NCBI GenBank assembly: GCA_024643655.1
Contig: JAHEMM010000005.1
Location: forward strand, 1-64,000
Length of the DNA stretch: 64,000 bases
Reading direction: 5' to 3'
DNA from: Chitinophagaceae bacterium
Lineage (GTDB): Bacteria; Bacteroidota; Bacteroidia; Chitinophagales; Chitinophagaceae
Position numbers and translations under genes: made by a program. Under the pieces are notes generated by a model. The model saw only the letters and a list, made by a program, of their open reading frames with translations, was not told the origin of the DNA and searched no databases. Shown here one piece after another: positions 24,003-34,350 of the stretch (positions are counted from its first letter, which is position 1; the number at the start of each line of letters is the position of its first letter).

Positions 24003-24617
24003 ATGAAATACACTGCATTCTTCAAAATTTTGGCATTCATTCTCTTTCTGTTACCGAATATGAGTTTTTCGCAAGAGAAAGACATTGTGATCCGGGTAAT
24101 ACAAAATGAATCTGTTAAATTAACAGATTTTGATACAGAAATAAAAATGAAGAAAAAACAATTTAAAGTTCAGGTCATGTTAGAACATGCTGAAGGGCTT
24201 TATGTTTTTGCGAGTATAAAGGATTCGGTTTATAGGTTTACTGAAAATAGCCCGATTAGGGATTTTTCCTATTTAAATCTTTTGGAATTAAGAGAAACAG
24301 ATACATTTAACACCAATAAGGAACTGAATCTAAGTGAAACAGGTTGGTCATACTGGAGTTATAATGACAGCTTGAAATGGCATTCTTTTAGTCGTAATCC
24401 AATTGGCATCGGAAGCAATAGAGTTGTTTGTACAAAATACATAAAAGATCTCTATGATGTTGCAACGGGTGAAACAATAAAATTTAAAGATCTTAAAACG
24501 CCATTGTATATTTTATTCATAGGCGTTAAGGAGTATGATGAAAATGGGAAACCTTTAAAGGAATTAATTCGTCGAAAAGTAAAAATTACATTTGGGAAAA
24601 ATGATGAAAGTGATTAA
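24003..24617 (+). CDS. Secreted protein of unknown function
   Basis: A 204-residue exported protein with a standard signal peptide (KYTAFFKILAFILFLLPNMS, cleavage near SFSQ). The mature part contains QVMLEHAEGLYVFASIKDS, LSETGWSYWSYNDSLKWHSF and VCTKYIKDLYDVATGETIKF, and looks beta-rich. I recognise no family. It ends with a four-base overlap with the converging small membrane protein gene. No operon partner on the plus strand is close, so the context gives no clue. Confidence 0.7.
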   Translation: MKYTAFFKILAFILFLLPNMSFSQEKDIVIRVIQNESVKLTDFDTEIKMKKKQFKVQVMLEHAEGLYVFASIKDSVYRFTENSPIRDFSYLNLLELRETDTFNTNKELNLSETGWSYWSYNDSLKWHSFSRNPIGIGSNRVVCTKYIKDLYDVATGETIKFKDLKTPLYILFIGVKEYDENGKPLKELIRRKVKITFGKNDESD

Positions 24618-24850
24618 TTGAGAAAATTATCCAGCATGTTTTTCTCCTTTTTTCGGATGGCTTTTTTATGTTTTAGATATGCGATAATTAAAAGAACCAA
24701 TCCTGCAATAAAGAAAATATTAAATCCAATATAATAACCCACTCTTTCACTTTTATCTTCTGGGGGATTAAACCCACTTCCTGAATACGAAATAGCATTA
24801 AATAAAATCAATACTAGTCCTATTGTAATTAAAATGTTTCTAGATTTCAT
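24614..24850 (-). CDS. Small two-helix membrane protein
   Basis: A 78-residue protein with two hydrophobic helices (about residues 7-24 and 44-60) separated by a polar loop (GSGFNPPEDKSERVGYYIG), then a very basic C-terminal tail (KHKKAIRKKEKN). No family is recognised. It lies ten bases after pepD on the same strand and may be co-transcribed with it. Confidence 0.6.
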   Translation of the reverse strand: MKSRNILITIGLVLILFNAISYSGSGFNPPEDKSERVGYYIGFNIFFIAGLVLLIIAYLKHKKAIRKKEKNMLDNFLN

Positions 24851-24860
24851 TTTGAAAAAT

Positions 24861-26321
24861 TTAATCTATAACCGGAATTCTTTTTAAGCTTTCCAATAAA
24901 TAGTTCCAGAATTTTTTCACAGAGCTGATCTGCGCTCTTTCATCAGGAGAATGAGCCCCATAAATATTGGGACCAAAAGATATCATTTGCATGTCAGGGT
25001 AGCTTTTCCCAATAATGCCACACTCCAATCCAGCATGTACTGCATTTACATGTGCATTCTCATTAAACAATTCTTTATAAAGATCACTCATGATTTTTAT
25101 TATTGGGGCATCAGGTCGGGGAACCCATCCAGGATACTCACCACTATAGTTTATAGTAGCACCCGTTAATTCAAAAGCACTTGATATGGCATTTGCCAAG
25201 TCCGTTTTTTCAGAATCCACAGAACTTCGGGTCAGACATTTTATTGTAAAAGCACCATCCTTCACAGAAACTTTAGCAATATTATTAGAAGTTTGCACCA
25301 ATCCTTCAATTTCTGGTGTCATTCTATAAATTCCATTGGGGCAAGCATAAACACTTCTCAATAATTTATATTGAGCATCCAAATTCATAACTTTTTCCGG
25401 CGGCGAAATACTTTCTAGAACCAATTCAAGTTTTGAATCTGTAAAACTATATTCAGTTTTAAAGATTTTTTCTAACGTTTCAATTAATCTTGAAACTGTA
25501 TCTATATGCTTTTCATCTATGACAATCTCCGCAATTGATTCCCGTGGTATTGCATTCCTTAAACTTCCACCATCAACAGATGCAATATTGATTGCACACT
25601 CATTAGAAAGATTCCAAAGCAATCGATTCATAAGCTTATTTGCATTCGCTCTACCCGTTTGAATATCCATACCCGAATGACCTCCGGTTAATCCATGAAT
25701 AGAAATTCTGAATCCCAGATTACCTGTTGCTTTTACTTCTTCGTAATTCCCTGTACATGTAACATCAATGCCTCCGGCACAACCAATCGTCAATTCATCG
25801 TCATCTTCTGTATCAAGATTCAATAATATTTTACCTTCCAATAAACCACCTATTAAACCCTTTGCACCTGTCATCCCAGTTTCCTCATCAATTGTGAATA
25901 AAGCTTCAATTGGCGGATGTGCAATATCTGATGATGCTAAAATAGCCATAATGGCAGCTACTCCTATTCCATTGTCTGCACCCAGCGTTGTTCCTTTTGC
26001 TTTCACCCAATCTCCATCGATAAACATATTAATACCTTCTTTGTCAAAATCAAAATTTGTATCAGCATTTTTCTGATGCACCATATCTAAATGACTTTGC
26101 AAAACTACCGTTTGCCGATTTTCCATTCCTTTGCTGGCAGCTTTATTAATAATCACATTACCAACACCATCTACCTGTGTGAACAAACCCAATGATTCTC
26201 CAAAGGCTTTAGCAAATGCAATTACTCCTTCTTCTTTTTTAGAGGGTCTAGGCACAGCATTAAGATCTGCAAAATGATTCCATAATACTTTTGGTTCCAA
26301 TTGTCTTATTGCATCACTCAT
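24861..26321 (-). CDS. pepD: Aminoacyl-histidine dipeptidase (beta-Ala-His dipeptidase)
   Basis: A full-length 486-residue M20 metallopeptidase of the PepD/carnosinase type. The metal ligands are visible in VVLQSHLDMVHQKN (His and Asp), TTLGADNGIGVAA (bridging Asp), FTIDEETGMTGA (the EE pair with catalytic Glu) and the late AVHAGLECGIIG and GPNIYGAHSPDER. It cleaves Xaa-His and other dipeptides in the cytosol. A lid/dimerisation domain lies at about residues 205-400. The start ATG at 26321 gives the conserved opening AIRQLEPKVLWNHFADL. It is divergent from the helicase gene. Confidence 0.95.
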   Translation of the reverse strand: MSDAIRQLEPKVLWNHFADLNAVPRPSKKEEGVIAFAKAFGESLGLFTQVDGVGNVIINKAASKGMENRQTVVLQSHLDMVHQKNADTNFDFDKEGINMFIDGDWVKAKGTTLGADNGIGVAAIMAILASSDIAHPPIEALFTIDEETGMTGAKGLIGGLLEGKILLNLDTEDDDELTIGCAGGIDVTCTGNYEEVKATGNLGFRISIHGLTGGHSGMDIQTGRANANKLMNRLLWNLSNECAINIASVDGGSLRNAIPRESIAEIVIDEKHIDTVSRLIETLEKIFKTEYSFTDSKLELVLESISPPEKVMNLDAQYKLLRSVYACPNGIYRMTPEIEGLVQTSNNIAKVSVKDGAFTIKCLTRSSVDSEKTDLANAISSAFELTGATINYSGEYPGWVPRPDAPIIKIMSDLYKELFNENAHVNAVHAGLECGIIGKSYPDMQMISFGPNIYGAHSPDERAQISSVKKFWNYLLESLKRIPVID

Positions 26322-26406
26322 ATACTATATAAATTTTAAAAAGTGCTTAAAAGTAAATGAAAATCATAATTTATAATCGTATTTATTCTGAAGCACAAAA
26401 CAAGCT

Positions 26407-26414
26407 TACTTTTG
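26407..26414 (+). promoter_or_regulatory. -7 promoter element of the DEFD helicase gene
   Basis: TACTTTTG matches TAnnTTTG and ends only four bases before the ATG at 26419, which suggests a leaderless transcript. Confidence 0.5.
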
Positions 26415-26418
26415 CAAA

Positions 26419-27744
26419 ATGTCACAAAAGAACATTACTGTACAAAGCATTTTGGATAAACTGAATATCAAATCGTTAAACGAGATGCAACTAGCTGCTC
26501 AAAAATCGATTGAAAAACAAAAAAACACAATTCTTTTATCTGCAACTGGCTCTGGAAAAACATTGGCCTTTCTATTACCATTAATCAATATGATTGATGC
26601 AAATAAAGCAACTTCACAGGCAATTATTATTGTTCCATCGAGGGAGCTGGCTTTACAAATAGAAGCTGTTTTTAAAAGTATGGGGACCAATATAAAAGTA
26701 ACCTGTTGTTATGGAGGACATAAAAGAGAAACAGAGGAAAACAATTTAATTGAAGCTCCGGGATTGTTAATTGGAACTCCGGGCCGATTGGCTGATCATA
26801 TTAGAAGAGGCAATATCACATTAGATACAATTGAAACATTGGTTCTGGACGAATTCGACAAATCGCTGGAATTGGGATTTAAAGATGAAGTGTCGTATAT
26901 CATCAATGCTTTAAAAAACATTAATAAGAGAATTTTGACTTCTGCAACCGAGGCAGTAGATATCCCTGACTTTATCGGCATGAAAGACCCATTAAAATTA
27001 AATTTCCTGAATGAAATTGATGAAGAAACTGGGCTTGCAATAAAAACTGTCCTTAGTGATGGGAAGGACAAACTGGAAACATTATTAAGTCTGATATGTA
27101 TGTTGGGGAATCGCTCTATAATCATATTCTGCAATCACAGAGAATCGGTAGAACGTACAAGCAATTACTTGAAAGAAAAAGACATATTGAATGTTTTTTA
27201 TCATGGGGCAATGGAACAACAGGAAAGAGATGCTGCTTTATGTAAATTTAGAAATGGCACTTCAAATGTATTGGTTACTACTGATCTTGCAGCCAGAGGT
27301 CTAGATATTGCCAATATACGTTACATTATACATTATCATCTTCCTATGAGTGAGGATATTTTTACTCATCGAAATGGAAGAACGGCTAGAATGGATGCCA
27401 GTGGAACAGCTATTCTTATATTATCGCCTGAAGAAAAAATACCTGCTTATATAAATACAGATATTGAAAAAATTGATTTGCCGGAGAAAAGAATAATTCC
27501 TGAAAAACCTAAATGGTCTACTTTATTTGTTGCTGCTGGCAAAAAAGATAAAGTGAATAAAATCGATATCGTTGGCTTCCTTTCCAATAAAGGCGAATTA
27601 AAAAAAGAAGATATAGGTCTTATAGAGGTAAAAGATTTCTTTTCTTTTGTAGCAGTAAAAAAAATCAAAGTAAGTCACACACTTCAATTGATCAAAGACC
27701 AGAAAATAAAAAACAAAAAAGTAAAAATCGCAGTAGCAAAATAA
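26419..27744 (+). CDS. DEAD-box-type RNA helicase with DEFD motif II
   Basis: A 441-residue SF2 helicase. Motif I is ATGSGKT (residues 42-48), Ia is VPSRELALQ, motif II is DEFD (144-147) in place of DEAD, motif III is SAT (175-177), motif V is TTDLAARGLDI and motif VI is HRNGRTAR. The Q motif is partly present (LNEMQLAAQKS). After the helicase core a short C-terminal region (about residues 365-441), basic with KKIKVSHTLQLIKDQKIK, resembles the DbpA RNA-binding (RRM-like) domain, so a role in ribosome assembly is plausible. The phenylalanine in motif II is unusual but conservative, as the two acidic metal residues remain. Confidence 0.9.
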   Translation: MSQKNITVQSILDKLNIKSLNEMQLAAQKSIEKQKNTILLSATGSGKTLAFLLPLINMIDANKATSQAIIIVPSRELALQIEAVFKSMGTNIKVTCCYGGHKRETEENNLIEAPGLLIGTPGRLADHIRRGNITLDTIETLVLDEFDKSLELGFKDEVSYIINALKNINKRILTSATEAVDIPDFIGMKDPLKLNFLNEIDEETGLAIKTVLSDGKDKLETLLSLICMLGNRSIIIFCNHRESVERTSNYLKEKDILNVFYHGAMEQQERDAALCKFRNGTSNVLVTTDLAARGLDIANIRYIIHYHLPMSEDIFTHRNGRTARMDASGTAILILSPEEKIPAYINTDIEKIDLPEKRIIPEKPKWSTLFVAAGKKDKVNKIDIVGFLSNKGELKKEDIGLIEVKDFFSFVAVKKIKVSHTLQLIKDQKIKNKKVKIAVAK

Positions 27745-27747
27745 TAT

Positions 27748-29673
27748 TTACATACTTATTAATGCCTTTATCTTACGCTTGAGGTAAATAAAATTAATAT
27801 ACTTCAATGTTAAGAATTCATAATCACCAATCAGCAATAAAGTAATAGCAGCTTCTTTTAAGACCACAGCATTATTAAAATTAATAAGCGCCTGATCTTT
27901 AGCCCCAGCTTTTGCATATTCAATACCCTTCCACAATTCAGATACATACTCGCCTGATTTATTAATCACATTAAATCGCTCATTCACATCTTCCAATAAT
28001 AGAGAGTTATTGCCACTTTCAAAAAATGTAAGTAATGGCTTATCCTTAGCTTGTTGAGCAGCTGTAATAGCTTCCTCTTTATTACCAAAAGACCAATGAA
28101 GCCGGGCAAGGTCTTGATACCTTTTCTTTTGTAAAATAGGCTCATAAGCCGACTTCTCAATAAGATTGCTTAATAAACTAATGGCTTCATTTTCTTGCCT
28201 GGCACTTGCTAAGGCTTTTATTCTATTTCTGGTAAGATAATCCCAAGCTGGATTTATTTCGCTCCCTTTAGCATACATGTCCAATGCCTCTTGTTTTTCA
28301 TCCTGCCCTTCTAATAATATTGCAAACCAGAGATAAACATTTGTCTGATTAGGATTTAATTCAATAGATTTTCTATAAAACAGTTCTGCCTCTTTCCAAT
28401 TAAAATTCTGGTGATGCCAATAGCCCATAGCGGCCTGTATTTCGCCTGATTTTGGGTCTAAAGAAATCGCTGTATCCAATTGCTTTTTGGCCAATGATAA
28501 CATTATATCTGGCTCTTCATATCCCCGAAAAGATGAAAGAAGATAAGTAATTGCTAATCCCGAAAATGCCAATGCAAATGTATCATCCTTATTTATTGCT
28601 TGCTGAAAGAGTTCTCTTGCAATTAATAAATCTGTTTTTCTCCTTTTTTCTACTAAAAATTTACCTCTTAAATATAAATCATAAGCCTGCAAATTTGCAG
28701 TAGGTGTATCATCTAATTTCGCTGTTTCTTTTTTTGTTAGTTTTTTATTGAGAACTGATGCAATTGAAATAGCGACTTCCCGTTGTATAGAGAATATATC
28801 ATCCATAGAACGATCATAAGACTCAGCCCATAAATGTTCATCAGTAGAAGCATTTATTAGCTGCGCAGTAATGCGAACTTTTTCTCCATATCGTTGTACA
28901 CTACCTTCCAGAATAGTAGCTACTCCTAATTCACTACCAATTTCCTTTACTGCCTTTGGAAATTTTTTATATTGCATTACTGAAGTTCTGGATATGACTT
29001 TCAAAGCCTTAATTCTCGATAACTGCGTAATAATATCTTCAGTAAGTCCATCACTAAAATATTCCTGTTCGATATCACTACTCATATTAGAAAAAGGCAA
29101 CACTGCAATACTATTCTCATCAATCTTTTTAATCGTTTTTTTATTAGTCGCTGATGAGATAATGGGCTGACTGAAAGAAGTAATAACTTCATAAATATTT
29201 ACAGGGTCTTTTACATTTTTTAATTGCTCCTTCCTTATAAAAACTGATTCCAGCCCTTTTTTATTAGAAATATTAAGATTGACCATTTCGGAAACATAGA
29301 TCCCACCAGGAGGAGCTAAGGCTTGAATTCTGGATGCAATATTTACAACATCCCCGAAAATATTTTCATTTTGGACAAGCACATCACCCATATGTATTCC
29401 AATCCTTACAGGAATTACCGGCGGATCGTTTAGTTCTGTTTGAAAAAACTTTGCAAATTCCGCTGCATCAGTAGAGCTTTGAAAAAGTAACAATGCCCCA
29501 TCTCCATAATACTGAATAATTTTACCATTTAATTCTTTAGCAATTATTTCCAGTGATTGTCGAAACCTGTTTATTTTTTCAACTGCCGAATTTTCATCTT
29601 CCTGCATCATGGATGTATACCCCACAACATCAGCAAATAAAATAGCAGCTAGTTGATGTGAATGATCTGCCAT
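27748..29673 (-). CDS. Class III nucleotidyl cyclase with TolB-like and TPR domains
   Basis: A 641-residue three-part protein. Residues 8-165 are a class III cyclase homology domain: the metal aspartates are in FADVVGYTS (D15) and YYGDGALLLF (D58), and the transition-state Asn/Arg pair is in GDVVNIASRIQ. The position that is usually Lys in adenylate cyclases is Gln54, so ATP/GTP preference is uncertain. Residues about 190-320 form a TolB/FlgO-like N-terminal unit (SIAVLPFSNMS, GLTEDIITQLSRI). About 330-641 are TPR-like helices (SGLAITYLLS, AAMGYWHHQNFNWKEAE, NQTNVYLWFAILLEG). No membrane helix is seen. It probably makes cAMP or cGMP in response to a ligand on the TPR/TolB part. Confidence 0.88.
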   Translation of the reverse strand: MADHSHQLAAILFADVVGYTSMMQEDENSAVEKINRFRQSLEIIAKELNGKIIQYYGDGALLLFQSSTDAAEFAKFFQTELNDPPVIPVRIGIHMGDVLVQNENIFGDVVNIASRIQALAPPGGIYVSEMVNLNISNKKGLESVFIRKEQLKNVKDPVNIYEVITSFSQPIISSATNKKTIKKIDENSIAVLPFSNMSSDIEQEYFSDGLTEDIITQLSRIKALKVISRTSVMQYKKFPKAVKEIGSELGVATILEGSVQRYGEKVRITAQLINASTDEHLWAESYDRSMDDIFSIQREVAISIASVLNKKLTKKETAKLDDTPTANLQAYDLYLRGKFLVEKRRKTDLLIARELFQQAINKDDTFALAFSGLAITYLLSSFRGYEEPDIMLSLAKKQLDTAISLDPKSGEIQAAMGYWHHQNFNWKEAELFYRKSIELNPNQTNVYLWFAILLEGQDEKQEALDMYAKGSEINPAWDYLTRNRIKALASARQENEAISLLSNLIEKSAYEPILQKKRYQDLARLHWSFGNKEEAITAAQQAKDKPLLTFFESGNNSLLLEDVNERFNVINKSGEYVSELWKGIEYAKAGAKDQALINFNNAVVLKEAAITLLLIGDYEFLTLKYINFIYLKRKIKALISM

Positions 29674-29827
29674 TGGTTGAAGTTGAACCGCAAGTTAACT
29701 AAAATGATTTTCTTTCTACTTATTGTTTCTAAAAACAGCTTGCAATTGATAAGAAAAACTTACCCCAATTTAAAATATGAACCCTCCCATATCTTTCTTA
29801 AATTGCAAAAAGCAAAATACTATTTTT

Positions 29828-30868
29828 ATGCGAATAGAAAATGATATAAAACTGGGGTTTAAAGATGTGATGCTTCGTCCCAAACGTTCTACGCTCAGTT
29901 CCAGAGTTGAAGTTTCACTTGTTAGAAAATTTAAGCTATTACATAGTGATACAACGTGGGAAGGCATACCGGTCATGGCGGCCAATATGGATACAGTTGG
30001 CACTTTTGAAATGGCAGAAGTATTGGCTTCGCTTCAATTATTCACTACTATACACAAACACTATACCCCTTCACAATGGAAAAAGTTTATGAAGGTTACA
30101 GGTAACAATATTCAGAGCCATCTTGCCATCAGTACTGGTACAAGTAAAACAGATGCTGAGAAATTGGATATTATTTTAAAAGAAAATAAATACTTACAAT
30201 TTATTTGTATCGATGTAGCCAATGGTTATTCAGAAAAATTTGTAGCGTTTGTAAAAGCTACCAGAAAAAAATATCCAGACAAAGCAATCATCGCTGGAAA
30301 TGTGGTTACCGGTGAGATGGTAGAAGAACTTTTGTTGGCAGGTGCAGATATTATTAAAGTTGGAATTGGTCCCGGATCTGTTTGTACTACCAGAGTAAAA
30401 ACTGGAGTTGGCTATCCGCAACTTTCTGCCATTATAGAATGTGCCGACGCTGCTCATGGATTAGGTGGACTTATAATTTCTGATGGGGGCTGCAAAGTTC
30501 CAGGTGATGTAGTAAAGGCTTTTGGTGGAGGCGCCGATTTTGTAATGCTCGGTGGTATGTTGGCAGGCCATGAAGAAAGTGGCGGAGAGTTAATAGAGAA
30601 AGATGACAAAAAATACAAATTGTTTTATGGTATGAGTTCAGAAACAGCTATGAAAAAATATGCAGGAGGGGTAGCTGAGTACCGGGCTTCAGAAGGTAAA
30701 ACAACCGAAATTCCATATCGTGGCAAAGTTAATGATACCGTTCAAGACATTCTTGGCGGCCTTCGATCTGCTTGCACTTATGTAGGAGCAAAATCGTTAA
30801 AAGAATTATCGAAACGAACTACGTTTATCCGAGTTGCGGAACAACACAATGAATGGTTTGCAGAATAA
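29828..30868 (+). CDS. guaC: GMP reductase
   Basis: A 346-residue IMPDH/GMPR family barrel that converts GMP to IMP with NADPH. The catalytic loop [15 protein letters not shown] places the nucleophile at Cys186, the same number as in E. coli GuaC. GuaC-type features include [11 protein letters not shown] near the N-terminus, [31 protein letters not shown] and MSSETAM. No CBS domains are present, which separates it from IMP dehydrogenase. The frame extends 17 codons upstream to 29777, but the ATG at 29828 gives the standard length. The dCMP deaminase gene follows after 16 bases, forming a nucleotide-salvage pair. Confidence 0.93.
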
Positions 30869-30884
30869 CATAAGAATAATTTGT

Positions 30885-31382
30885 ATGAAAAAAAGACAAA
30901 ATTATATTTCCTGGGATGAATACTTTATGGGTGTTGCATTGCTATCTGCAAAGCGTAGTAAAGACCCCAGCACTCAAGTAGGTGCATGTATTGTAAATGA
31001 AAAGAACAAAATTGTTGGCGCCGGTTACAACGGCTTACCAATAGGTTGTAGCGATGATGAATTCCCATGGGGAAATGAAGGGGAATTCATGAATACAAAA
31101 TATCCGTATATCTGCCATGCAGAATTAAATGCAATTTTAAATAATATTGGCATGGATCTCAGTGGCTGTAAGATATATACTGCCTTATTTCCTTGTAATG
31201 AATGTGCAAAAGCAATTATCCAGTCAGGCATTTCTGAAGTCATTTATCTTTCTGATAAATATGAAGGTAACGATGTATTTAAAGTTTCTAGATTGATACT
31301 GGAAAAGGCCGGAATCAAATACAGAAAAGTAAACACAGAAATTGCAAGCCTTACTTTATCTTTTAATGATAAAGATGTTTAA
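30885..31382 (+). CDS. Deoxycytidylate deaminase
   Basis: A 165-residue zinc-dependent CMP/dCMP deaminase. The zinc site is CHAELNAI (His and catalytic Glu) and PCNECAKAIIQSG (two Cys). WDEYFMGVALLSAKRSKDPS and QVGACIVNEKN are typical of dCMP deaminases (ComEB/DCTD type). It converts dCMP to dUMP, feeding dTMP synthesis. Earlier in-frame ATGs (30834, 30849) lie within the end of guaC; the ATG at 30885 gives the family start with KKRQNYISWDEYF. It is probably co-transcribed with guaC. Confidence 0.9.
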   Translation: MKKRQNYISWDEYFMGVALLSAKRSKDPSTQVGACIVNEKNKIVGAGYNGLPIGCSDDEFPWGNEGEFMNTKYPYICHAELNAILNNIGMDLSGCKIYTALFPCNECAKAIIQSGISEVIYLSDKYEGNDVFKVSRLILEKAGIKYRKVNTEIASLTLSFNDKDV

Positions 31383-31387
31383 TCAAC

Positions 31388-32566
31388 TTACTTATTGGGG
31401 CTGTTAGCTTCAAGAATCCGTAAAAAATTTAATCCCAGAATTTTTTTGACGTCTTTTTTACTATAACCTCTTTTCAAAAGCTCTTTTGTAATAAGCGGCA
31501 TATTTGTAACATCATCCAATTGCTGAGGAGCAGAATTAATACCGTCAAAATCGCTTCCTAATCCTACATGGTCAATTCCAATCAATTTTACAATATAATC
31601 CAAGTGATCAATCAGCATTGATAATGGTGGTCGCAGCGATATTACTTCATCAGGATATTTTTCAAACAAATAAAAATCAGCAAAATATGATTCCGGATTT
31701 ATGTTTAACAAAGAATCTCTTTCTTTTTTATGGTTGGCACTAAATTCTTCAGCTCGGCGATCGTAGCTACTGTCTACAAATCCTGAATAAAAATTTAAAT
31801 GAATTACACCTCCATTTTTACCAATTGCTTTTATTTGTTCATCTTTCAAATTTCTGGGAACCCTGCACAGCTCATACACACAACTATGGGAAACTAATAC
31901 TGGTTTCGATGTTGCAGCAATTGCATCAAAAAATGTTTTCTCACCAACATGACTGAGATCGACCAACATCCCGAGCTCATTCATTCGCTTAACAACCTGT
32001 CTCCCAAAATCAGTAAGTCCTTTTTGCTTTAATTTTTCTGGTCTGTTTGTTTCATCCCATGCAGATGAAGCCCAGTCTGTTGAGTTATTCCAGGTAAGTG
32101 TCATATACCTTACTCCTCTGGCATAAAATCTATTCAAATTGTCTAAATTATTCTCAATCATATGGCCGCCTTCAACTCCAAACATGGCAGCTAACTTTTT
32201 TTCTTTAAATGTTTGATTCAGTTGAGAAAATTTTTCTATCATAATCAATTTGTCTGGGTTTCGGTTTGCTACAGCATCCAATGTGTCCATTTCCCTATTT
32301 GCCCATGCATAAGGATTCTCCTTTTGCCCATCACACCAAACAGAGAAAAGTTGTAAATCGATTCCTCCTTTTTTAAACCTGTCAATATCAGAATGTGTTT
32401 TTCCTGATAGATCGGTATCGATAACAACACCATCATCAACTGCTTTACTAAGTAAATCGTTGTGCGTATCAACAACAATAGACTTAAAATGTAATTTCTT
32501 GTAAGGTTGGGAAAAAATCAAAAATGGCGAAAAGGCTAATAAAAAAAAGAAGGCAATTTTAAACAT
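31388..32566 (-). CDS. Secreted membrane dipeptidase (M19, renal dipeptidase family)
   Basis: A 392-residue zinc peptidase. The signal peptide FKIAFFFLLAFSPFLIFSQ is followed by the M19 metal motif VVDTHNDLL (H-x-D type), the bridging glutamate in FGVEGGHMIENN, then MLVDLSHVGEKT, LVSHSCVYELC and DHVGLGSDFDGI. It hydrolyses dipeptides, including those with D-amino acids in the C-terminal position, probably in the periplasm. That would help recycle peptidoglycan or dietary dipeptides. The length matches the family. It converges with the dCMP deaminase gene with a five-base gap. Confidence 0.92.
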   Translation of the reverse strand: MFKIAFFFLLAFSPFLIFSQPYKKLHFKSIVVDTHNDLLSKAVDDGVVIDTDLSGKTHSDIDRFKKGGIDLQLFSVWCDGQKENPYAWANREMDTLDAVANRNPDKLIMIEKFSQLNQTFKEKKLAAMFGVEGGHMIENNLDNLNRFYARGVRYMTLTWNNSTDWASSAWDETNRPEKLKQKGLTDFGRQVVKRMNELGMLVDLSHVGEKTFFDAIAATSKPVLVSHSCVYELCRVPRNLKDEQIKAIGKNGGVIHLNFYSGFVDSSYDRRAEEFSANHKKERDSLLNINPESYFADFYLFEKYPDEVISLRPPLSMLIDHLDYIVKLIGIDHVGLGSDFDGINSAPQQLDDVTNMPLITKELLKRGYSKKDVKKILGLNFLRILEANSPNK

Positions 32567-32979
32567 ATTATTCCTTTAATCGTTGACGTAATCAAGTTTT
32601 TCGATGTATAATATTAATTATGAAAGATACATTTTAATACCTCTATCTTTTTTGATTTTATAATGAAGTAAAAAATAAGTAAATAGAAAAAAGAAATTAA
32701 ACACAACCATTAAACGTTTTTTCCAACAAGCCTAACAAATTTTTAATAAAAATATATAAGCTACAGAAATAAAATTAATCTTAACTCCTTGTATATGAGT
32801 TACTTAATTAACAGAATATTGCAATGTCAAGTAAAATAGTAGCGAGATATTCAATATTATGGGTTGCAATTTAGTTTAACTAGACATTCTCCATTAAATT
32901 TGCTCCAATTTATGTAGTTTTATAGCATAAGGGAAAGTTTAAAACTGCTTTCAACATTATTACACCAAAACAATTAAAA
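32567..32979. other. Intergenic region, 413 bases, no gene seen
   Basis: This AT-rich gap separates the divergent dipeptidase and OmpA/TSP3 genes, so it must hold both promoters. No exact TAnnTTTG element was found at a suitable distance from either start. The only hint is TAGTTTTA at 32915-32922, one mismatch. No RNA gene or conserved frame was recognised. Confidence 0.5.
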
Positions 32980-34350
32980 ATGAAAAAATCGCTTTTATTA
33001 TTATCGGCCTTCTTGCTGATGATTACAGCATTTGCACAAGAGAAACCCAAAACACTTGTAACTGTTGGATTTACCGGAGCCTTAAATATGGCGAAATTCA
33101 ATCTTAAAAACCAATCAAGCTCATCATCCACAGATTACAGCTTTCGTTCTGATGGGGTTGCAGGTTTTTGGTTTAATTTCCCAATTAGTGAAAGATTTTC
33201 ATTTGAGCCACAGGTTTTATTTAGCACTAACAAGGTAGCTCCAACAGGTGGCACTTCTGCTGATTTTAATGGTAAAATCAATTATGTTGGAATCCCGTTA
33301 TTATTGAAAATTCATGCTGGTAAATATATCGCCTTCCCAATCGGGCCACAGATCGATATTAGAAGAAGTGTGAAAAATAATATAGGCAATTCATCTCTTT
33401 CAAATAGTGCAACAGAAAGTTATAGTCTTGGACTAAGTGGTGGTATAGAGATTATGCCAAAAGCAAGGTTTACTATTTTTGGTCGTTATATTTATGGCCT
33501 TACAACAGTAAATAATCCTCTTACTACTTCTCGTCCATACGAGGCTAAGAATCAAAATATTTATGCTGGTTTCAAGGTTAAATTATTTGATTTTTATAAG
33601 AAGAAAAAAATTGTACCACCTCCACCTCCAGAACCACCAAAAGATACAGATGGAGATGGCATTATTGATAGTCTTGATAAATGTCCAACTGTTCCAGGCC
33701 TTCCAAAATATGATGGATGTCCAATTCCTGATACTGATAAAGACGGTATTAATGATGAAGAAGACAAATGTCCAACTGTACCTGGAATAGCAAAATATCA
33801 AGGATGTCCAATTCCTGATACTGATAAGGACGGAATCAATGACGAAGAAGACAAATGTCCAACTGTACCTGGTGTACCAGAATATCAGGGATGCCCAGTT
33901 CCAGACAGAGATAAAGACGGTGTACCTGATAAAGATGATAAGTGTCCAGACACTCCAGGTTTAGTAGAATTGCAGGGATGTCCTGAAATCACCAATGAAA
34001 TAAAGAATACAATTGACTATGCAGCTAAGAATGTTTATTTTAATACAAACAGTACTAAGCTATTAGAAAAATCATTTGGACCGTTGGATTCAGTGGTATC
34101 TATTCTTAATAAAAATATGAGCTTGAAACTGAAGATAGATGGTCATACTGATAGCGATGGAAGCGATGCTTTTAATATGAAATTGAGTGAAGGCCGTGCA
34201 GGATCAGTAAAAGCATATCTTGTAAGTAAGGGAATTAGTGAAGACAGGTTGGAAAGTGAAGGATTTGGCGAATCAATGCCTGTAGCACCAAACACTACCA
34301 GGGCAGGTAAAGCTAAAAACCGTCGGGTGGAAATGAAGCTATCTTATTAA
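32980..34350 (+). CDS. OmpA-family outer membrane protein with thrombospondin type 3 repeats
   Basis: A 456-residue protein. The signal peptide is KKSLLLLSAFLLMITAFAQ. Residues about 25-210 are an outer-membrane beta-barrel of the PorT/OmpW-like kind (alternating strands such as FWFNFPISERFSFEPQVLF). A proline hinge (PPPPPEPP, near residue 215) leads into four 29-residue calcium-binding TSP3 repeats (222-337), and residues about 345-456 are the OmpA peptidoglycan-binding domain with DGHTDSDGSDAFNMKLSEGR and AKNRRVEMKL. It should anchor the outer membrane to the cell wall. A strong terminator follows directly. Confidence 0.92.
   Translation: MKKSLLLLSAFLLMITAFAQEKPKTLVTVGFTGALNMAKFNLKNQSSSSSTDYSFRSDGVAGFWFNFPISERFSFEPQVLFSTNKVAPTGGTSADFNGKINYVGIPLLLKIHAGKYIAFPIGPQIDIRRSVKNNIGNSSLSNSATESYSLGLSGGIEIMPKARFTIFGRYIYGLTTVNNPLTTSRPYEAKNQNIYAGFKVKLFDFYKKKKIVPPPPPEPPKDTDGDGIIDSLDKCPTVPGLPKYDGCPIPDTDKDGINDEEDKCPTVPGIAKYQGCPIPDTDKDGINDEEDKCPTVPGVPEYQGCPVPDRDKDGVPDKDDKCPDTPGLVELQGCPEITNEIKNTIDYAAKNVYFNTNSTKLLEKSFGPLDSVVSILNKNMSLKLKIDGHTDSDGSDAFNMKLSEGRAGSVKAYLVSKGISEDRLESEGFGESMPVAPNTTRAGKAKNRRVEMKLSY
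33643..33990 (+). repeat. Four tandem 87-base repeats coding TSP3 units
   Basis: Four in-frame units of 87 bases (29 residues) within the OmpA gene, each of the form D-x-D-x-D-G-(x)-DKCP-x-x-PG-(x)-GCP. Units 2 and 3 are nearly identical in both protein and DNA, which suggests recent duplication and possible copy-number change by recombination. Confidence 0.9.

Follow-up and report, generated by a model that had tools for sequence, protein, structure and literature searches.

Base choice by class III nucleotide cyclases was still termed insufficiently explained in 2019 (PMC7384201). In guanylyl cyclases, Glu is found at the first base-reading position and Cys or Ser at the second, with Gly in Cya2 (PMC7384201, PMC4215837), which also carries Tyr at a third selectivity position (PMC4215837). 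With Ma1120 of Mycobacterium avium, cyclic AMP (cAMP) synthesis persists at a lower Vmax when Asp157 is replaced by C, G, T or H, while the Lys to Glu substitution brings GTP use, more so in combination with Asp to T or G, with raised cyclic GMP (cGMP) synthesis (PMC4215837). In EaPycC, Arg142, four residues before the second metal aspartate D146, helps CTP binding (PMC11224242). Here we describe a gene found in positions 1 to 64,000 of contig JAHEMM010000005.1 of a Chitinophagaceae bacterium (assembly GCA_024643655.1), a stretch of 64,000 nucleotides referred to below as the window, the product of which joins a class III cyclase domain to a module predicted to adopt the fold of the CadC sensor; both adenine-reading residues of the cyclase domain are exchanged, Gln54 and Asn104 taking the places of Lys and Asp, and the catalytic residues are kept. 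A Gln/Asn pair is not in itself new: it also occurs in Mycobacterium tuberculosis Rv0386, which, in work by Castro et al. (2005, FEBS J), is reported to be active mainly with ATP, with approximately 20% GTP activity, and reportedly loses activity on changing the pair to Lys/Asp or to Ala.

The gene occupies 27748..29673 on the minus strand, where all the features of the protein given below also lie, and encodes 641 residues (ATG at 29673, stop at 27748-27750). Residues 1-166 (29176..29673) correspond to the cyclase domain, as judged by Pfam PF00211 (Guanylate_cyc, residues 4-141, 38.6 bits against a cut-off of 21.9), by the match to Protein Data Bank entry 3mr7 (E 5.3e-20) and by comparison of a predicted model with 4wp9_A. 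Residue roles were assigned by alignment with 3mr7 and are supported by the orthologue alignments. The first and second metal aspartates are D15 (29629..29631) and D58 (29500..29502), the transition-state Asn and Arg are N111 (29341..29343) and R115 (29329..29331), and Q54 (29512..29514) aligns under the adenine-reading Lys of 3mr7, in agreement with an earlier note on this DNA, which had reported both the retained catalytic residues and the Gln. That note overlooked, however, a second exchange, namely that of the adenine-reading Asp for N104 (29362..29364). The third selectivity position, Ala167 in Ma1120 and Tyr in the guanylyl cyclase Cya2, is S114 (29332..29334), as derived from residue spacing, with Asp157, Ala164, Ala167 and Arg168 of Ma1120 corresponding to N104, N111, S114 and R115 of the window protein (PMC4215837 numbering); Ala or Ser is found at this position in 178 of 182 related domains. 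The metal Asp pair, the transition-state Asn/Arg and the cyclase homology domain fold of the predicted model place the domain in class III, with Gln54 and Asn104 in lieu of the canonical adenylyl cyclase pair of Lys with Asp (or Thr).

The exchange of both residues does not give the site the signature of a guanylyl cyclase. The residues typical of those enzymes (Glu with Cys, Ser or Gly, and the Tyr of Cya2 at the third position) are absent, Q54, N104 and S114 being found instead, and Rv0386, a precedent that shares the pair, is reported to be mainly adenylyl, so that the cGMP product put forward in the earlier note finds no specific support. A guanylyl or dual-purine cyclase with GTP as the main substrate can nevertheless be formulated, in which the Gln oxygen would accept from guanine N1-H/N2-H and Asn would donate to O6, by considering that Gln can supply the same acceptor as the Glu that confers GTP use on Ma1120 (PMC4215837). 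A gene with an IMP dehydrogenase/GMP reductase domain (29777-30868, Pfam E 5.2e-80) divergently adjoins the cyclase, as would suit GTP as a substrate, but this arrangement recurs in 0 of 13 orthologue neighbourhoods, and cyclases with a Glu/Ser pair exist separately among the relatives (L028, L029 and L050). cGMP as the main product is regarded as a lesser possibility, and on balance an unlikely one.

The Gln/Asn pair is no isolated oddity, being kept across the orthologues of the genus. These are present in 14 of 42 genus genomes. Of the 14, 12 are full length (the window protein included); the gene of G009 is divided between contig ends and that of G031 is interrupted by a stop. Alignments of the full-length orthologues with the window protein run end to end, and Q54 and N104 are found in 12/12 full-length sequences and in the two partial ones (L048 in G009 and L019 in G031), and thus in 14/14. 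The 17 genomes of the genus with a size of 2.1 Mb or less, some of which are incomplete, gave no orthologue match at E 1e-20. In G031 (L019/L038, G031:C1:165890-166935) an in-frame stop is present and the end of the gene is matched as a separate piece, so that this copy seems to be decaying. The closest named relatives of the window protein come from Chitinophagaceae and other Bacteroidota assemblies. In a clade set of 24 sequences (the window protein and 23 relatives 40 to 71% identical to it), chosen after the pair was known and drawn in part from a pattern scan in which this Gln was specified, Q54 is present in 24/24 (codons CAA in 12 and CAG in 12), as is N104 (AAT in 21, AAC in 3), and D15, D58, N111 and R115 are invariant. 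One base change each would suffice for reversion of Gln to Lys or of Asn to Asp.

A wider set comprised 190 distinct cyclase domains with at least 130 aligned positions, mostly from Bacteroidota; it is not a neutral sample, and part of it is biased by a search pattern containing Gln. With this proviso, Gln is found at position 54 in 128 of the 190, and the pairs at positions 54/104 are Q/G (55), Q/N (33), K/D (33), Q/E (17), Q/A (11) and Q/D (5), followed by Q/Q (4), H/D (4), Q/T, M/G, E/S and K/T (3 each) and others. Of the 98 distinct domains that first entered the set through loci L143-L256, 59 have Gln at position 54 and 24 have the K/D pair; these loci derive from profile searches and follow-up stretches and, because the profile was built mostly from Gln-type rows, are not neutral either. 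A PF00211 survey of 296 genomes of the phylum, which gave the strongest matches, was not used for counts. In two loci, copies with unlike pairs are neighbours: in G433 (L202, G433:C28:22500-30500) adjacent cyclase copies carry Q/G, M/G and Q/G, and in G047 (L141, G047:C4:93000-103000) a Q/G copy lies next to a K/D copy, which suggests duplication followed by a change of the base reader.

The variability of the base-reading residues in the wider group, including Met (3/190), which is unable to hydrogen-bond the base edge, could be taken to indicate a degenerate or regulatory cyclase-like domain devoid of activity, serving as a nucleotide binder or a dimer scaffold. A dead enzyme would, however, be expected to lose its catalytic residues, which show no variation among the 24 clade sequences and are all intact in 182 of the 190 domains (one of the other eight being a truncated row), and we consider this explanation highly improbable.

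The distribution of the pairs was analysed on a maximum-likelihood tree of 151 domains with at least 145 positions and DDNR or EENR as catalytic residues, thinned at 85% identity and with both trait columns masked. The window clade consists of 11 rows, 11/11 of which are Q/N (support 100/98); 27 of 32 K/D rows group together in a 30-row clade (99/95), and 15 of 16 Q/E rows in another single clade. The Q/N state requires six changes (bootstrap range 4-6, with at least two forced by well-supported branches), and was thus gained or lost more than once; all pair labels together require 36 changes. Loss of Lys at 54 and loss of Asp at 104 are coupled on the tree: of the independent pairs counted, six are concordant, none is discordant and two show no change (median p 0.031, range 0.031-0.063). 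The tree is unrooted, its deep forks are unsettled and its bootstrap values not fully settled, so that the direction of residue change is not given.

These patterns would also accommodate a broader scheme, in which the Bacteroidota Gln-type cyclases form a natural substrate-diversified series, with a fixed core and the second residue swapped by clade (Asn, Gly, Glu, Ala, Asp, Gln or Thr), paralogues in one cell using their own sensors to make different cyclic nucleotides, and the product of the window Q/N branch being other than plain cAMP. In this complete form we consider the scheme doubtful.

The C-terminal part of the protein could be interpreted with the aid of an AlphaFold2 monomer model built from 37 sequences (mean predicted local distance difference test score, pLDDT, 87.6; predicted template modelling score 0.67), bearing in mind that the structure match lists test the parts of the model unequally. 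For the cyclase part the closest solved folds are those of Ma1120 (4wp9_A, Z 25.7, root-mean-square deviation, rmsd, 2.1 over 164 residues), Rv1900c of M. tuberculosis (1ybu_B, Z 25.3 over 161 residues) and 3mr7 (3mr7_B, Z 23.6 over 163 residues). A flexible linker (residues 167-181, 29131..29175; pLDDT <50 at 171-180) follows, and no membrane helix is predicted by hydropathy scan between cyclase and sensor. Next come a TolB/FlgO-like alpha-beta subdomain (residues ~182-308, 28750..29130), placed by profile matches and the model, and a helical TPR part (residues ~326-641, 27751..28698), the first portion of which, to residue ~504, completes a CadC-like fold. Residues 182-504 of the model match the CadC periplasmic domain 3lya with Z 24.4 and rmsd 3.6 over 299 residues at 13% identity, and the CadC entries 3lya, 3ly9, 3ly8 and 3ly7 all match at Z 24.1-24.4 with the same order of an alpha-beta and then a helical subdomain. 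At the sequence level several TPR families exceed their Pfam cut-offs, the FlgO match at residues 183-279 (14.6 bits) is under its cut-off of 22.6, and the NCBIfam matches, to HilA/EilA at E 4.9e-12 and to CadC at E 8.6e-7 over residues 176-381, are both far under the naming cut-offs. The TolB and TPR parts are therefore predicted to form a single, known sensor fold of the CadC type, to which further helices are added up to residue 641. The fusion of the cyclase with TolB/FlgO-like and TPR parts noted earlier stands, but a CadC-like module of two subdomains plus additional helices describes the sensing part better than a TPR solenoid alone. By hydropathy, a membrane helix between cyclase and sensor is predicted in 18 of 33 K/D members versus 5 of 31 Q/N members; a relative in the same genome on contig C172 (L004/L053) scores as having one between its cyclase and its CadC-like sensor.

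By taking into account the retained residues, their conservation and the predicted fold, we infer, with moderate confidence, an active, sensor-regulated class III cyclase with a Gln/Asn amide reader, which would make mainly cAMP with a relaxed choice of purine. The enzyme would be a soluble homodimer of two head-to-tail subunits, in which D15 and D58 would hold two metals and N111 and R115 would support the transition state. The base would be read by the amides of Gln54 and Asn104 instead of Lys and Asp and, because amides can flip and offer a donor or an acceptor, the pocket may accept adenine, for mainly ATP to cAMP conversion, and also some guanine. The C-terminal CadC-type module (the alpha-beta subdomain and the TPR helices), lacking a membrane helix, would set the cyclase activity.

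Several observations weigh against this proposal. Across the wider group the second residue changes with the clade, and Met or His may stand at the first position, so that drift or other substrates fit as well as ATP. The coupling of the two positions has exceptions (among 182 domains, Gln with Asp in five, another residue with Asp in five and Lys without Asp in three), and within the clade set 60 of the 165 positions of the cyclase domain show no variation, so that it is no rarity for two chosen sites to be constant. The five cyclic nucleotide monophosphate (cNMP)-binding-domain proteins of the genome, retrieved in the receptor search that the earlier note proposed, include none with a fully canonical phosphate-binding cassette, as judged by eye against the usual motif, and thus no clear cAMP receptor was identified. 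Finally, no account of the Gln-type group, including the biochemistry of any member, was found in the literature searched, which took in few subscription papers and so leaves its unpublished status unproven.

A pyrimidine or other unusual product (cCMP, cUMP or cIMP) would find an argument in the position of Gln54, four residues before the second metal Asp, which is that of the Arg142 used for CTP in EaPycC (PMC11224242) and hence one that switches base choice in class III enzymes. On the other side, EaPycC Arg142 and Gln144 are unmatched in the window protein, PADLOC PycC models match weakly (best E 5.3e-6, 24.2 bits), none of the five cNMP-binding-domain proteins lies on the window contig, and no PycTM/PycTIR-type effector was found among 17 neighbour proteins (seven in the window at 24003-34347, scanned with Pfam and PADLOC, and ten in orthologue loci, where a selection of the open reading frames was scanned, leaving out three of 160-170 residues beside L126, L127 and L128). 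Such products are less likely still than cGMP, and in our view improbable. Membership of the Pycsar systems, considered on account of the weak PycC matches, was rejected because the scanned neighbours include no such effector.

The gene is flanked on both sides by opposite-strand genes: a DEAD-box helicase gene (26419-27741) and the IMP dehydrogenase/GMP reductase-domain gene described above. Beyond the latter, on the plus strand, a cytidine/deoxycytidylate deaminase-domain gene (30834-31382), also matched by a PADLOC 'dCTPase' model (E 5.5e-28), is probably an ordinary dCMP deaminase. No neighbour gene is common to all 13 orthologue neighbourhoods: five (L123 and L125-L128) have at least four genes in common with the window region, in varying arrangements, and in the other eight the cyclase is the sole gene in common. 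In five of these eight (L129-L133) the cyclase has a divergent neighbour of 480-485 codons, which Pfam identifies as a histidine kinase in both cases tested (L129 and L131). The other flank of the cyclase is taken, in L130-L133, by a gene 348-370 codons long that encodes a PAS-domain protein in both cases tested (L130 and L132). A sub-group is thus found in a sensory gene setting, unlike the window locus.

In the window assembly (G000, 3.17 Mb in 177 contigs, with the window on contig C119) there are five PF00211 matches. Two further cyclases of the same type (C93 and C172) retain Lys/Asp, and another, L002 (G000:C139:3848-4360, a frame of 561 residues), has Gln and Ala at the base-reading positions and sits on a long branch outside the family. 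One of the cNMP-binding-domain proteins, L055 (G000:C123:8241-8498, 601 residues), combines this domain with what by eye is a patatin-like phospholipase part and has a nearly canonical cassette (Arg to His); it is a possible receptor. Among the matches listed, frames of similar length, compared by length and not by the patatin part, occur in G035, G037 and G039 only, so that no receptor partner can be named.

Cyclic-nucleotide signalling in Bacteroidota is, to our knowledge, little charted, and cyclases of this type from the phylum are routinely named adenylate or guanylate cyclases. Given that both residues that usually select ATP are exchanged, cAMP should not be assumed as the product. The novelty lies in how large and how ordered the Gln-type group is, in the link of its second residue to the clade and in the CadC-like sensor; a large group with a changed base-reading pair and unchanged catalytic residues provides a ready test set for base choice in class III enzymes, and the window gene offers a CadC-type sensor with an enzyme as its output.

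Comparison with the known systems places the protein apart from each of them. 3mr7, from Silicibacter pomeroyi, differs in having Lys/Asp at the base-reading positions, as does Ma1120 with Lys101/Asp157 and, in addition, Ala at 164 (PMC4215837). The Bacteroidetes DUF2652 cyclase-like proteins are class III-related, belong to the same phylum and also have a non-standard base-reading pair, but this consists of Glu with Lys or Arg and the proteins are mostly single-domain, forming a separate family (PMC4886424). PycC of the Pycsar systems shares the class III fold and a residue other than Lys at the base-reading position; the Arg142/Gln144 of EaPycC (PMC11224242) and an adjacent effector set it apart from the window protein, the scanned neighbours of which include no effector. 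Rv0386, described in other papers as an AAA-ATPase/helix-turn-helix fusion, comes from another phylum, and the Pfam scan of the window protein reveals neither of these parts, the CadC-like module being present instead. The likeness to Rv0386 is that of a Gln/Asn pair in a class III domain. In E. coli CadC, which takes pH and polyamines as its inputs, sensing is periplasmic, and the protein also has a membrane helix and a DNA-binding domain. The window protein, which resembles CadC in the predicted fold of residues 182-504, has a cyclase in place of the winged-helix DNA-binding domain and is predicted to do without the membrane helix.
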